A stretch of DNA of 64,000 nucleotides. It comes from Acidovorax sp. Leaf78. GTDB lineage: Bacteria > Pseudomonadota > Gammaproteobacteria > Burkholderiales > Burkholderiaceae_C. Location of the stretch: the NCBI RefSeq assembly GCF_001422735.1, contig NZ_LMLZ01000022.1:1-64000 (forward strand), read 5' to 3'. The translations under genes and the position numbers were made by a program. Below the pieces are notes generated by a model. It was not told the origin of the DNA and ran no database searches. It was given only the letters and a program-made list of their open reading frames with translations. Shown here in pieces: positions 1-64,000 of this stretch (the first letter of the stretch is position 1; each line of letters begins with the position of its first letter).

Positions 1-384
1 TCGGCGCTGAGGTGCGGCTCAGTTCCTTATCGACGCTCAGGGGCGGGGTGGGGGCTATCTTTGCCAGTCGGTCAAAGCCGATAGCCGGTACTCAGGCCCT
101 CCACCCCAACACCTCCACCATACAAGCCGGATCCACGGTGGCGCTGGCGTTGAGGGCGGGGGGTGATTGGTGGCGCGCCCTTTGTCAGCGGAGCGCCATT
201 CGCTACGCTCTGGCTGGGGTACCGGCGCTAGGGCACCTTCTGCGGGCGGGCTAACTGTGGTCTTGGGTGAGCTGGGTCGGAGGCTACTGGATGGAGGCGG
301 CGGCGCACCCCTCATGAAAATACTCAGCTTCTAAGCCAAAACACCCTCTACCGCTTTTCTATAAAGCGCCAGTAGCTAGATATT
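1..384. other. No confident gene; hairpin and a dispersed-repeat copy
   Basis: I see no convincing coding region here. Short open frames exist on both strands but have no recognisable protein features. An imperfect hairpin lies at 53-86 (GGCTATC ... GATAGCC, with TTTG/CAAA inside). Positions about 345-392 hold a copy of the dispersed GCTAT-N7 element, which runs into the 3' end of mtnN. Confidence 0.5.
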
Positions 385-1128
385 TCATAGCAACTGCAAC
401 AACTTGCCGACGATGCCCTCTGCGTACCGGCTCGCCACGGTTTGGATGAACTGGGGGAAGTCGACGTGGGCGGTGTCGTCGGCGCGGTCGGAGATGGTGC
501 GCATGGCGGCGAAGGGCACGTTGTAGTCCAGGCAGACCTGGGCCACGGCGGCGCCTTCCATTTCGACGGCGAGGACCTGGTGGCCGGCGGCGCGCAGGGC
601 GTCGCGCAGGCGCTGCGACTCCTGGGCGCTGGAGACGAAGCGGTCGCCGCTGGCGATCAGGCCCTGGTGCACGCTGCGGACCTCGGATTGCGAAGAAAAA
701 TGGCCGCTACCGCCCATCAGGCAATCGCGAGCAGCTATCAAAAGCAGAGCAGACAATGGTGCATCGCACTCCAGCACCGCGCGTGCATAGCCGGGCAGCT
801 CCCAGCGCGGGAACAACGGGGATGCGTCCATGTCGTGCTGCAGGTAGCTCTGCGCCACCACCACGTCGCCCACGTTCACGCCGTCACCCAGGCCGCCCGC
901 CACGCCGGTGAACACGATGCGCGCGACGCCGAAGTGCTCGATGAGCGCCGTGGCCGTGGTGGCCGCCGCCACCTTGCCGATGCCCGAGAGCGCCAGCACG
1001 ACAGACCGCCCGTGCAGTTCACCGCGCCAGAACGCGCGGCCAGCGTGGGTGATGCGCTGGGGACGCTCGAGCGCGTGGACCAGGCCGGCCTGTTCTTCGG
1101 GGAGGGCGCTGAGGATGGCGGTGGTCAT
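385..1128 (-). CDS. mtnN: 5'-methylthioadenosine/S-adenosylhomocysteine nucleosidase
   Basis: Hydrolyses the N-glycosidic bond of methylthioadenosine and S-adenosylhomocysteine in the cytosol, part of methionine salvage and the activated methyl cycle. The 247-residue protein starts MTTAILSALPEEQAGL, has the FTGVAGGLGDGVNVGDVVVA nucleoside-phosphorylase stretch, the VEMEGAAVAQVC substrate motif and the RTISDRADD stretch with the catalytic Asp. Family members are usually about 230 residues. The extra length lies in a mid-protein segment (LLLIAARDCLMGGSGHFS) that coincides with a copy of the dispersed repeat at about 696-747, and the stop codon is also supplied by a repeat copy. Adenine release is known for the family; effect of the insert is unknown. 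Confidence 0.92.
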   Translation of the reverse strand: MTTAILSALPEEQAGLVHALERPQRITHAGRAFWRGELHGRSVVLALSGIGKVAAATTATALIEHFGVARIVFTGVAGGLGDGVNVGDVVVAQSYLQHDMDASPLFPRWELPGYARAVLECDAPLSALLLIAARDCLMGGSGHFSSQSEVRSVHQGLIASGDRFVSSAQESQRLRDALRAAGHQVLAVEMEGAAVAQVCLDYNVPFAAMRTISDRADDTAHVDFPQFIQTVASRYAEGIVGKLLQLL

Positions 1129-21647: not shown

Positions 21648-22418
21648 TCAGCGGTTGAGCTCTGCCAGCCGCTCGGGCGTGCCCACGTCGGTCCAGCGGC
21701 CGGTGTAGATCTCTGCGCTGACACGGCCCTGGTCCATGGCGCGGCGCAGCAGCGGGGCCAGCGGCGCCTGAATGCCGTGCGGGTTGCCGGCCGGAATGTC
21801 GCACCAGGGCTCGGCGAACAGCTCTGCACGCAGCAGGGCGATGGTGCTGTAGGTGTAGCGGGGGGCTGGGTCGCCGGGTGCGAGGTTCAACGCCAGCCCC
21901 TCTGGCGACAAGCCGAAGTCGCCGCGCGGGTTGTGCGCCGGGTTGGGCACCAGCCACAGGTGGGCCAGGCGGTCGCTGGCGGCAAAAGCCTGCACCGCGG
22001 CGCTGTCGAACACGAAGTCGGGCGCAAACACATCGCCCGCCGCCAGCCAGAACACGGGGCCCAGCTGGGGTAGCGCGCGGGCGATGCCGCCGGCGGTTTC
22101 AAGCGCCCCGCCAAAGTCCACACCCTCGTGGGAGTATGAAATTGATAGCTGCTCGCGTTTGTCTATCAAGCGGTGGAGGCCAAAAACATCTGCAAACCGC
22201 TCGCTGATCTGCGACCCGAGCCAGGCGGTGTTGATGACAGCCCGCTGCACGCCCGCATCCTGCAACGCCTGCAGGTGCCACTCCAGCAGCGGCAGCCCCT
22301 GCACCGCGAGCAGCGGCTTGGGGGTGCTGTCGGTCAGCGGGCGCATGCGCTCGCCGCGGCCGGCGGCGAGCAGCAGCGCCGGGACCTGGGTAGGGATGGC
22401 AGGGTTCATCGCGCTCAT
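21648..22418 (-). CDS. murU: Sugar-phosphate nucleotidyltransferase, MurU-like
   Basis: A 256-residue nucleotidyltransferase. The signature LLLAAGRGERMRPLTDSTPKPLLAVQGLPLLEWHL matches glucose-1-phosphate/MurNAc-1-phosphate uridylyltransferases, followed by GALETAGGIARALPQLG and a GDVFAPDFVFD metal-binding segment. MurU recycles cell-wall MurNAc by making UDP-MurNAc; its usual partner kinase AmgK is not seen here, so the symbol is provisional. The start overlaps the speD stop (ATGA). A copy of the dispersed repeat lies in frame and encodes the segment around FGLHRLIDKREQLSIS, just before the conserved SYSHEG; this segment is longer than I expect for the family. Confidence 0.8.
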   Translation of the reverse strand: MSAMNPAIPTQVPALLLAAGRGERMRPLTDSTPKPLLAVQGLPLLEWHLQALQDAGVQRAVINTAWLGSQISERFADVFGLHRLIDKREQLSISYSHEGVDFGGALETAGGIARALPQLGPVFWLAAGDVFAPDFVFDSAAVQAFAASDRLAHLWLVPNPAHNPRGDFGLSPEGLALNLAPGDPAPRYTYSTIALLRAELFAEPWCDIPAGNPHGIQAPLAPLLRRAMDQGRVSAEIYTGRWTDVGTPERLAELNR

Positions 22419-35703: not shown

Positions 35704-35772
35704 ACCATCTGATCGACGGCGCGCCTTGCGTCCAGGCGCTGCGCAGGTGGCGTACGTCGGCCAAAAAAGAGC

Positions 35773-35833
35773 AGCTATTGATTTGATAGCTGCTTGCGCC
35801 CGTCAGATGCGCAGCAGGGGCCTTTTGGGGCAT
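35773..35833. repeat. Dispersed element copy (GCTAT-N7-ATAGC type)
   Basis: Intergenic copy between map and the yhcG pseudogene. It has the terminal hairpin GCTATTGATTTGATAGC, the TGCTTGCGC block and a 3' CCTTTTGGGG box. It aligns over its length to the copies at 41589, 57368 and 22133. Confidence 0.85.
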
Positions 35834-35935
35834 GAATATTGAGCGACGACCGTACCAAGAGCGCAATGACCGGCCGGCGGCTCCGTCATGGTTGTTCTTC
35901 AATTCGCCCAACTCGCCCAACTCGCCTTTGCCCGC

Positions 35936-41567: not shown

Positions 41568-41588
41568 GGGATGCAATGCAGGTGGAAT

Positions 41589-41644
41589 GCTATAAATAAG
41601 ATAGCTGCTTGCGCTTGATAGACAAGCGGTAGCGACCAAAAATG
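41589..41644. repeat. Dispersed element copy, best-preserved example
   Basis: Intergenic copy between ligK and the Bug gene. It contains the hairpin GCTATAAATAAGATAGC, then TGCTTGCGCTTGATAGAC, AAGCGGTAGCGACC and AAAAATGG. I use it as the reference for other copies. It lies within the lig operon, so it is transcribed. Confidence 0.85.
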
Positions 41645-41670
41645 GCGTGATTCAGGGCTCAGTCGATGTG

Positions 41671-57207: not shown

Positions 57208-57367
57208 GGTTCAAGGTCCTTCAGAGGCGGGGGCAAGTACGGAGCCCGCATGTGCATATGCGATGCGGAAGGCGGAAGGCGGAAGGCGCTGCTGGGCGCG
57301 CCGGGCCCTGTCCGTCGCCACGGAAGGCACGCGGCTTGAGGAAGACACTGGCATCCGAAATTAAATG

Positions 57368-57425
57368 CTTTTGTGCCGCTACCGCTCTATGAGCAAGCGC
57401 AAGCAGCTACGAATTTAATAGCAAA
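57368..57425. repeat. Dispersed element copy
   Basis: Copy in the opposite orientation to that at 41589: TTTTGTGCCGCTACCGC, AAGCGCAAGCAGCTAC and GAATTTAATAGC. It lies upstream of the radical SAM gene, between 57208 and its LexA-like box. Confidence 0.85.
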
Positions 57426-57471
57426 TGGCATTGTCAGCGATGCCCCTGCGCTGGCCTCGGAGATGAAAATA

Positions 57472-63788: not shown

Positions 63789-63840
63789 GCACCGGCGGGT
63801 GCGCGGTGGACCACGCAGTTCAAGGCCATTTCATGGCCTT

Positions 63841-63883
63841 GCGCTCGCTGCCATTGCGCAAGCAGCTATCTAATCAATAGCAA
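63841..63883. repeat. Dispersed element copy overlapping a stop codon
   Basis: Opposite-orientation copy (GCGCAAGCAGCTATC-TAATCAATAGC). Its TAG on the minus strand is the stop codon of the gene that runs off the window end. Another copy supplies the mtnN stop at 385. Confidence 0.8.
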
Positions 63884-64000
63884 CCGCACCATCGATCACC
63901 GGCGCGTGCCGCTGCGCCCACCAGAACATCGGCAATGCCACCAGCGCCGCCACCGACAGCGCGACGAAGGCCAGGCCGAAGTGCTGCCCGGCACCCACCA
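63870..64000 (-). CDS. C-terminal end of a membrane protein (partial, MFS-like)
   Basis: Minus-strand reading from the window end gives about 43 residues ending VALSVAALVALPMFWWAQRHAPVI and a short tail GAVAID, then TAG. The hydrophobic segment followed by a short basic tail resembles the last helix of a major facilitator transporter. The tail and stop codon lie in a dispersed repeat copy. The rest of the gene is outside the window. Confidence 0.55.
   Translation of the reverse strand, partial: VGAGQHFGLAFVALSVAALVALPMFWWAQRHAPVIDGAVAID

Follow-up and report, generated by a model that had tools for sequence, protein, structure and literature searches.

In a stretch of 64,000 nucleotides of Acidovorax sp. 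Leaf78 DNA (the window), a segment of the mtnN gene belongs to a dispersed palindromic repeat family of Acidovorax and its relatives, about 73 bp in length; it is a full-length member, old and inherited vertically. In at least two clades the dispersed copies of this family have a spelling, or dialect, specific to the lineage, and it is matched by the orthologous copies that the same clade has within coding sequences. The explanation that best accounts for these observations combines inherited coding copies, a homogenising force acting on DNA, and a recognition factor with drive. Taken as a whole, this explanation has a probability of about 0.7.

The family copies of the window and their two host genes are as follows, the bit scores and E values of the copies being those of a profile hidden Markov model (HMM):

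326 to 399, reverse strand: second copy, immediately 3' of mtnN (51.5 bits, E 1.5e-14)
385 to 1128, reverse strand: mtnN (MTA/SAH nucleosidase), a 247-aa open reading frame that hosts a coding copy (NCBIfam NF004079, E 1.1e-84)
678 to 759, reverse strand: full-length family copy within mtnN (leave-out HMM, 44.5 bits, E 2.3e-12, model positions 11-92)
706 to 739, reverse strand: 34-bp core (both arms and the turn) within the mtnN copy, located by pattern search
21651 to 22418, reverse strand: murU-like gene (N-acetylmuramate 1-phosphate uridylyltransferase), 256 aa (NF045761, E 1.5e-68, 231 bits, curated cut-off 250)
22135 to 22205, forward strand: in-frame copy within murU, antiparallel to the gene (FGLHRLIDKREQLSISY), with a two-sided coding signal (47.6 bits, E 2.5e-13)
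35767 to 35846, forward strand: dispersed copy, with open frames that carry no coding signal (41.5 bits)
41580 to 41659, forward strand: dispersed copy used for comparison in the preliminary description of this DNA (55.1 bits)
57349 to 57435, reverse strand: dispersed copy (59.0 bits)
63806 to 63891, reverse strand: weaker dispersed copy (34.1 bits)

The mtnN segment was scored with a model built from 161 copies of the genome from which the window is taken (G000), the mtnN copy being excluded, and E values refer to 0.5 Mb. It aligns to the model over its full length and gap-free (759-678, reverse strand), and it outscores the window copies at 35767 and 63891. The pattern GCTACCGC-N(5-25)-GCAGCTATC has exactly two matches in the window, 706-739 on the forward strand and 41600-41633 on the reverse strand, each 34 bp long, and this core pattern had no match in 100 shuffles. 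The preliminary description had reported a 34-bp core shared by mtnN and a second copy, and had taken the mtnN segment for a dispersed element lying in frame. Both statements are borne out, with the second core situated about 11 bp from the position given for it earlier (41589): the leave-out score leaves little to chance, and the core segment is read in frame within the 247-aa protein as the peptide LIAARDCLMGGSGHFS. The 34-bp core is merely the middle part of a longer element.

When the mtnN peptide was recoded synonymously 20,000 times with the codon usage of the genome, and again 20,000 times with flat usage, the observed profile score was never reached. Protein constraint therefore does not explain the mtnN copy. 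A resemblance due to chance or to protein-level convergence could be imagined on the grounds that the native helix motif of MtnN (LIAAAEACI in E. coli) resembles the translation of the element. The recodings and the leave-out E value speak against such a resemblance, as do the near-perfect palindromes found at the same place in several mtnN orthologues, for example GCTAGCGCTTGTGTATCAAGCGCTAGCGGCCAATTTGAC in Acidovorax sp. NO-1 (L025). Its probability is negligible, and the synonymous null rules it out.

The mtnN copy of G000 is a degenerate palindrome that has lost its hairpin. An inverted repeat was looked for in this copy and none was found, and its folding as single-stranded DNA gives a z score of -0.53, with 56 of 200 shuffles folding at least as well. 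In the same calculation, a hairpin is formed by the copy at 41600 (z -3.3) and by the mtnN copy of Acidovorax sp. NO-1 (z -5.7).

In the protein, the element corresponds to MtnN residues 124-151 approximately, that is, to the end of the helix 123-139 and most of the loop 140-152. An AlphaFold2 model based on 35 sequences (mean pLDDT 89.9) has residues 123-139 in a helix and residues 140-152 in neither helix nor strand, and the mean pLDDT of residues 141-150 is 51. The predicted fold matches those of Salmonella MtnN (Z 32.5) and E. coli MtnN (Z 31.8), the latter protein having about 13 residues fewer in the aligned region. The helix motif encoded by the 5' half of the element is also present in element-free MtnN, and the 3' half alone encodes the loop. 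In appearance, the element has taken the place of a variable helix-loop segment, or overwritten it; it does not look like an extra loop. The inserted loop of the preliminary description survives in the 3' half, a loop predicted with low confidence, and fails in the 5' half, which is a conserved helix end. When the proposed insert is mapped on the AlphaFold2 structure, it covers most of the loop 140-152 and the end of the helix 123-139 in addition. We think that MtnN may tolerate the element because the frame in which it is read gives an alanine-rich helix end, which would fit the native helix, plus a flexible loop.

The family as a whole comprises at least 150 copies in the 5.75-Mb genome G000, according to the profile search. 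Its consensus, TTGCTATtaAaTTnATAGCTGCTaGCGCTTGntnAtCAAGCGGTAGnGGCcntTTTtgcTtgaAtT, is about 73 bp long (58 aligned copies) and contains a conserved core of about 38 bp. The mean GC content of 158 copies is 45.5%, compared with 67% for the window. Seven clear copies were found in the window with the HMM. This number would extrapolate to roughly 600 in the genome, the copy numbers for G000, G014, G018 and G022 being those among the best 150 candidates scored. The gene mtnN is terminated by a TGA codon (385-387) that falls within the 5' end (CTATGAAAT) of the copy at 326-399, and copies 3' of mtnN are also present in other Comamonadaceae, including L028, L050, L054, L057 and L059, which have no coding copy. 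The window has no match above the gathering score to the RNA families of Rfam, so that a family described there was discarded as a candidate.

The only Y1-transposase gene found in G000 (L253:1459-2204, G000:C25) is RAYT-like, with 75.9 bits against REP_Tyr_transpos (cut-off 80), and a weak element copy (22 bits) is present at its 3' end, on one side only. In a plasmid collection the element occurs in 3 of 72,556 records. A DUF1010 open reading frame (L158:1355-1597) of a class 1 integron on a Vibrio anguillarum IncP plasmid matches the repeat consensus at 85% over 52 bp, so that a gene cassette may have acquired the family there.

The mtnN copy is one of several that are translated. The search for coding copies covered 202 copies with E < 1e-3 in 0.5 Mb, made up of the window and 0.44 Mb of neighbourhoods of about 3 kb around the matches in G000. 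A copy was counted as coding when a stop-free frame crossed the element and the codon-usage score reached 9 on each side, a cut-off that was set after the list had been viewed. By this rule 11 copies in 10 genes have a coding signal on both sides and the remaining 191 do not. The host genes are mtnN, thiL, dapE, murU, gluQ, earP (two copies) and the genes of a MacB-like ABC transporter, a sugar-ABC ATPase, an FAD/FeS oxidase and a DUF3418 protein. Besides mtnN, all nine genes have Pfam support, and the identities of the last four are those given by Pfam alone. NCBIfam, applied to five of the host genes, places EarP, ThiL (TIGR01379), DapE and GluQ above the cut-offs and MurU below. In the FAD/FeS oxidase, one copy of genome G018 lies in the same gene stretch as the G000 copy. 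The coding copies are read in several frames and in both orientations, and the resulting peptides differ widely (LIAASAYLSSGRGHF in thiL, KRPVPLDGRAQAAIK in dapE, HRLIDKREQLSISY in murU).

The distribution among relatives suggests that these coding copies are inherited. The nearest named relative of the host is Acidovorax sp. Leaf191 (G019), with an MtnN identity of 96%, which agrees with the earlier assignment of the DNA to a betaproteobacterium. Orthologues were fetched out of 47 genomes of the genus (thiL 38, murU 37, dapE 35, mtnN 30), and the model trained on G000 scores in 27 of the 38 thiL, 31 of the 37 murU and 27 of the 35 dapE orthologues. Among 71 distinct MtnN loops, 27 score at E <= 0.01, with Alicycliphilus (L032) and a related metagenome-assembled genome (MAG; L036) reaching 39 bits. 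In 26 of the 30 genus genomes mtnN stands out from the synonymous null (at most 5 of 1000 recodings as good), the exceptions being the A. soli clade. These four genomes do not stand out, and neither do Paracidovorax, Delftia, Diaphorobacter, Comamonas, Polaromonas, Rhodoferax and Malikia. By sequence comparison the mtnN copy is thus old, the element or what appears to be its remnant being present in 26 of 30 genus genomes and in a few relatives, and it is neither private nor recent. A MAG labelled Chitinophaga pinensis (L048) was found to encode a Malikia-like betaproteobacterial MtnN and is probably mis-binned or mislabelled.

The A. soli clade (G014, G017, G020 and G044) has no scoring element in any of mtnN, thiL, dapE and murU. 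The family is nearly absent from G014, which has 5 weak matches among the best candidates scored, and each of the four genomes contains 0-1 exact matches of either of two 15-mers of the family (TCAAGCGGTAGNGGC and TCAAGCGCTAGNGGC). The clade is nested, with weak support, in the mtnN tree; the four-gene tree has no outside root. The occurrence of the element in Alicycliphilus mtnN would favour a loss in the A. soli clade over a basal position of this clade.

It had been expected earlier that other members of the MtnN family would have a shorter loop. The loops with the element (n=27) are 108-135 nt long with a median of 120, and those at the null level (n=32) are 75-135 nt long with a median of 124.5, 9 of them being below 108 nt. 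The two groups do not differ in length (Mann-Whitney p 0.24; 12 mtnN loops intermediate between clear presence and absence were excluded from this comparison), and the expectation has to be given up. An equal length in all orthologues had been named in advance as the argument against an insertion. Length is indeed often equal where the element is absent, and the DNA sequence still separates the groups. Compared with the other genomes, the A. soli clade is shorter by 18 nt in thiL and by 12-15 nt in dapE, and equal in murU. The loop lengths in mtnN, murU, thiL and dapE rule out a simple insertion of 73 bp.

These lengths bear on a passive origin, in which a mobile palindrome, comparable to the Rickettsia palindromic elements (RPEs), landed in frame in the ancestor of Acidovorax and then decayed under coding constraint. 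Full-length in-frame copies in unrelated genes would be expected from such a process, some copies have decayed (the hairpin of the mtnN copy of G000 among them), and the RAYT-like gene carries its weak element copy at the 3' end. The process should, however, leave a gain in length, of which there is none in mtnN and murU and only the 18 nt of thiL and the 12 to 15 nt of dapE relative to the A. soli clade, and a search for a clean empty site of the element found none. Moreover, several genes and the dispersed copies have arrived at one and the same new spelling, as described below, which independent decay would not bring about. Passive insertion is, for these reasons, quite unlikely.

The dialects are most easily recognised in the right arm of the element, which reads GCGGTAG in the G000 consensus and GCGCTAG in many other Acidovorax. 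At this dialect site, G is present in 140 of the 153 G000 copies of at least 40 bits, and in 10 of the 11 G000 coding copies, read by eye. The gene earP (L173, G000:C8 16699 and 17236) contains two coding copies in opposite orientations, one with G and the other with C at this site. Exact counts of the dialect Z 15-mer TCAAGCGGTAGNGGC in the 47 genomes are 33 in G000, 37 in G019, 9 in their sister G038, 5 in G036, 4 in G037, 3 in G009 and 0-1 in the other 41. The alternative 15-mer TCAAGCGCTAGNGGC is found 0 times in G000 and G019, 2 times in G038, 6 in G036, 7 in G037, 19 in G009, and 0-42 times elsewhere; zero counts also apply to G008, G014, G017, G018, G020, G031, G034 and G044. Dialect Y, GCATRWTYSACTAGCGC, was drawn from the coding and dispersed copies of clade Y, and its counts, which include coding copies, are 82 in G005, 62 in G018, 61 in G033, 42 in G027, 12 in G002 and 0-4 in the other 42 genomes. 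Dialect X, TCGCGCGGTAGNGGC, is weak, with 18, 9, 5, 3 and 0 matches in the five clade-X genomes and 0-3 elsewhere, against a reversed-pattern background of 0-4 per genome. GGTAG belongs to the spelling of X too and is thus not unique to Z. Dialects are therefore clear for Z and Y and weak for X. The left arm is less uniform. In 20 copies of G018 picked by the Y pattern it is mixed, GCGC being present in 11 and absent in 9, and AGGC occurs in the left arm of many X and Y coding copies and of just part of the dispersed ones.

In trees calculated without the loop columns, by quick searches with SH-aLRT as the sole support measure, support for Z as a single group is 96 and 97%, that for the A. soli clade is 100%, and Y forms one group in the four-gene tree (85%). 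Clade X needs two changes, with G034 unresolved. Clades X and Y group with G042, whose copies spell GCGCTAG (30 exact matches), and both X and Y therefore look derived. Four genomes have mixed counts: 16 ancestral-type and 12 Y in G002, and 6 C and 5 G in G036, 7 and 4 in G037, and 2 and 9 in G038. They look like intermediates of a dialect switch.

The coding copies were compared with profiles of 38 bp derived from the dispersed copies of G000 (145 copies, the four test loci excluded), G022 (33), G018 (32) and other genomes (23; profile A). The position of the element in mtnN, thiL, dapE and murU was fixed by its offset in the protein alignment, regardless of whether an element was detected. 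Among the three dialects, the own one is best in 43 of 48 coding copies (X 17/17, Y 18/19, Z 8/12) and in all 12 gene-by-clade means of the four genes and three clades, one in three being expected. The main exception is G038, with Z best in one of four genes; in G019, Z is best in three of four. Clades X and Y were named after the coding copies had been viewed, with the dispersed copies of G018 and G022 fetched later as the best matches of a model built from mostly ancestral-type copies. The coding copies of genomes outside X, Y and Z match now one, now another of the four profiles, with no preference for profile A. When the ancestral-type consensus is taken as the reference and G002 and G038 are left out, 18 of 27 diagnostic sites have moved to the base of their own dialect, compared with changes at 91 of 367 shared sites (Fisher p 1e-5, the sites not being independent). 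Since these non-diagnostic sites have changed as well, part of the change in the coding copies is decay or reflects overlooked features of the dialects. Gene-specific turns persist in the changed copies, for example the TGTGT of mtnN in clade X.

The different reading frames and the two orientations mean that a shared function of the protein or of the mRNA cannot cause this agreement, and that its cause lies in the DNA. A related possibility is an RNA-level element, such as a terminator or a processing hairpin, that occurs within genes by happenstance. Many copies have palindromic arms, and some lie 3' of genes such as mtnN. In dapE, murU, gluQ and other genes, however, it is the opposite strand that appears in the mRNA, and dialect Z introduces a stem mismatch into most copies. 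There is no clear arm-to-arm covariation in 145 copies, and RNAalifold finds 7 pairs and no compensatory changes in 19 sequences. An RNA hairpin can be discarded as a maintained feature on the latter two grounds, and an RNA-level element is very unlikely altogether.

The agreement in dialect suggests that the coding copies are not merely passive fossils and that the homogenising force on DNA would act on them too. Such a pattern would amount to concerted evolution at the DNA level. Whole-gene transfer seems unlikely as its cause in four genes. Transposition cannot alter a copy in place, which leaves gene conversion or recognition with drive. Ectopic gene conversion by ordinary homologous recombination could homogenise the family in the absence of any dedicated recognition factor. 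The concerted change of dispersed and coding copies and the genomes with mixed counts (G002, G036, G037 and G038) are as expected from it. Conversion would, however, have to proceed in short tracts, the copies being loosely alike and keeping their gene-specific turns, as TGTGT in the mtnN of clade X does. Conversion of this kind is possible, though it is given well under even odds. The survival of gene-specific turns, together with arms that lack clear covariation, makes us lean towards recognition of the primary sequence. In the explanation favoured here, a candidate DNA-binding factor would recognise the repeat, its specificity would have shifted in some lineages, and the drive would operate through recombination, in natural transformation or in repair, and not through transposition.

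A special case of this explanation resembles the DNA uptake sequences (DUS) of Neisseriaceae: the repeat would be read during natural transformation, and biased uptake followed by recombination would drive the dialects. As described for DUS (PMC3630211), the dialects track phylogeny and extend into coding sequence. Natural transformation occurs in A. temperans and A. facilis, in the former with DNA of the same species alone in the experiments of PMC4212676, and A. facilis (represented by G009) and A. delafieldii (represented by G005) differ in dialect. On the other hand, the conserved core of about 38 bp is far longer than a DUS, the density of 7 copies per 64 kb of the window is well below that in Neisseria, and sequence divergence can also make transformation species-specific. 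A. delafieldii, furthermore, is rich in the family, and no transformation of it was detected in the experiments of PMC4212676. By analogy, then, a role in uptake might be considered but is unlikely. The lost hairpin of the mtnN copy of G000 and the result for A. delafieldii slightly lower the probability of the favoured explanation, of uptake and of the more specific proposal given below, and slightly raise that of passive insertion.

If a DNA-level drive of the favoured kind is at work, part of the amino-acid sequence of these enzymes is set by a signal in the DNA. Provided that the agreement in dialect is upheld, stretches of protein would be dictated by a DNA signal that spans the genome, and the mixed genomes G002, G036, G037 and G038 would allow the switch of a recognition sequence to be observed. 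The more specific proposal is a recognition sequence of 40-70 bp in Acidovorax and relatives, similar to those of uptake or recombination systems and with clade dialects, the drive of which might be strong enough to rewrite the coding sequence of the core enzymes DapE, ThiL, MurU and MtnN together with the other copies of the genome. This proposal, made by analogy, is doubtful. If true, it could explain why A. temperans is transformed solely by DNA of its own species, and the repeat is a testable candidate for the species specificity of this transformation. Among the matches listed in the openly licensed literature, there is no description of the repeat family, its coding copies or its dialects, and no uptake sequence is reported for Acidovorax.

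Several known systems can be compared with this family. REP elements, which go with RAYT transposases, are extragenic by name. The Acidovorax family is like them in being a short palindrome of high copy number. It is unlike them in that 11 of 202 copies have a two-sided coding signal, and in that the dialect of orthologous coding sites changes in place, an effect that transposition does not have. The RAYT-like gene of G000 is below the cut-off (75.9 vs 80 bits). The beta-proteobacterial repeat element (BRE), a dispersed repeat of Bordetella and Comamonadaceae, has some copies wholly within coding sequences; it is described as about 90 bp long, with an average of 69% GC in Bordetella, and as having 1 and 4 copies in two Acidovorax genomes (PMC3110155). 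Set against this published description, the Acidovorax family, with about 73 bp, 45.5% GC and at least 150 copies in G000, differs in length, GC content and copy number, and BRE was rejected as the same family.

The DUS of Neisseriaceae are present in many copies, including coding ones, with a spelling that is clade-specific and largely uniform within a genome, as described for the 10-mers searched in PMC3630211. The Acidovorax family likewise is a genome-wide motif with clade dialects and coding copies, as in DUS and USS systems. DUS are, in contrast to the Acidovorax core of about 38 bp, short and far more numerous, and their density in Neisseria is well above 7 per 64 kb. A. temperans gave no transformants with DNA of A. 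facilis, A. defluvii or A. delafieldii, and no transformation of A. delafieldii or A. defluvii was detected, in the experiments of PMC4212676. A link between the repeat and the natural transformation of Acidovorax, suggested by the likeness to DUS, is a hypothesis only.

RPEs are about 150 bp long and form ten families, with 44 integrations in R. conorii, nearly half of them in open reading frames (PMC10969869). As in RPEs, palindromic repeats of Acidovorax are found in frame in unrelated genes (11 copies in 10 genes) as well as outside genes. The analogy with RPEs that was drawn in the preliminary description is a fair one; the mtnN copy of G000 is itself a degenerate palindrome. Compared by description, the Acidovorax family is shorter (about 73 bp vs about 150 bp). 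It brings no net length to mtnN and murU, and 6 residues to ThiL and 4 to 5 to DapE relative to the A. soli clade. It has genus-wide inherited sites and lineage dialects, and its host is not Rickettsia. Palindromes within coding sequence have been described mainly in Rickettsia and are interpreted there as selfish insertions. In Acidovorax, a comparable element occupies inherited places in core enzyme genes, and its coding copies have changed alongside dozens of others in at least two clades.
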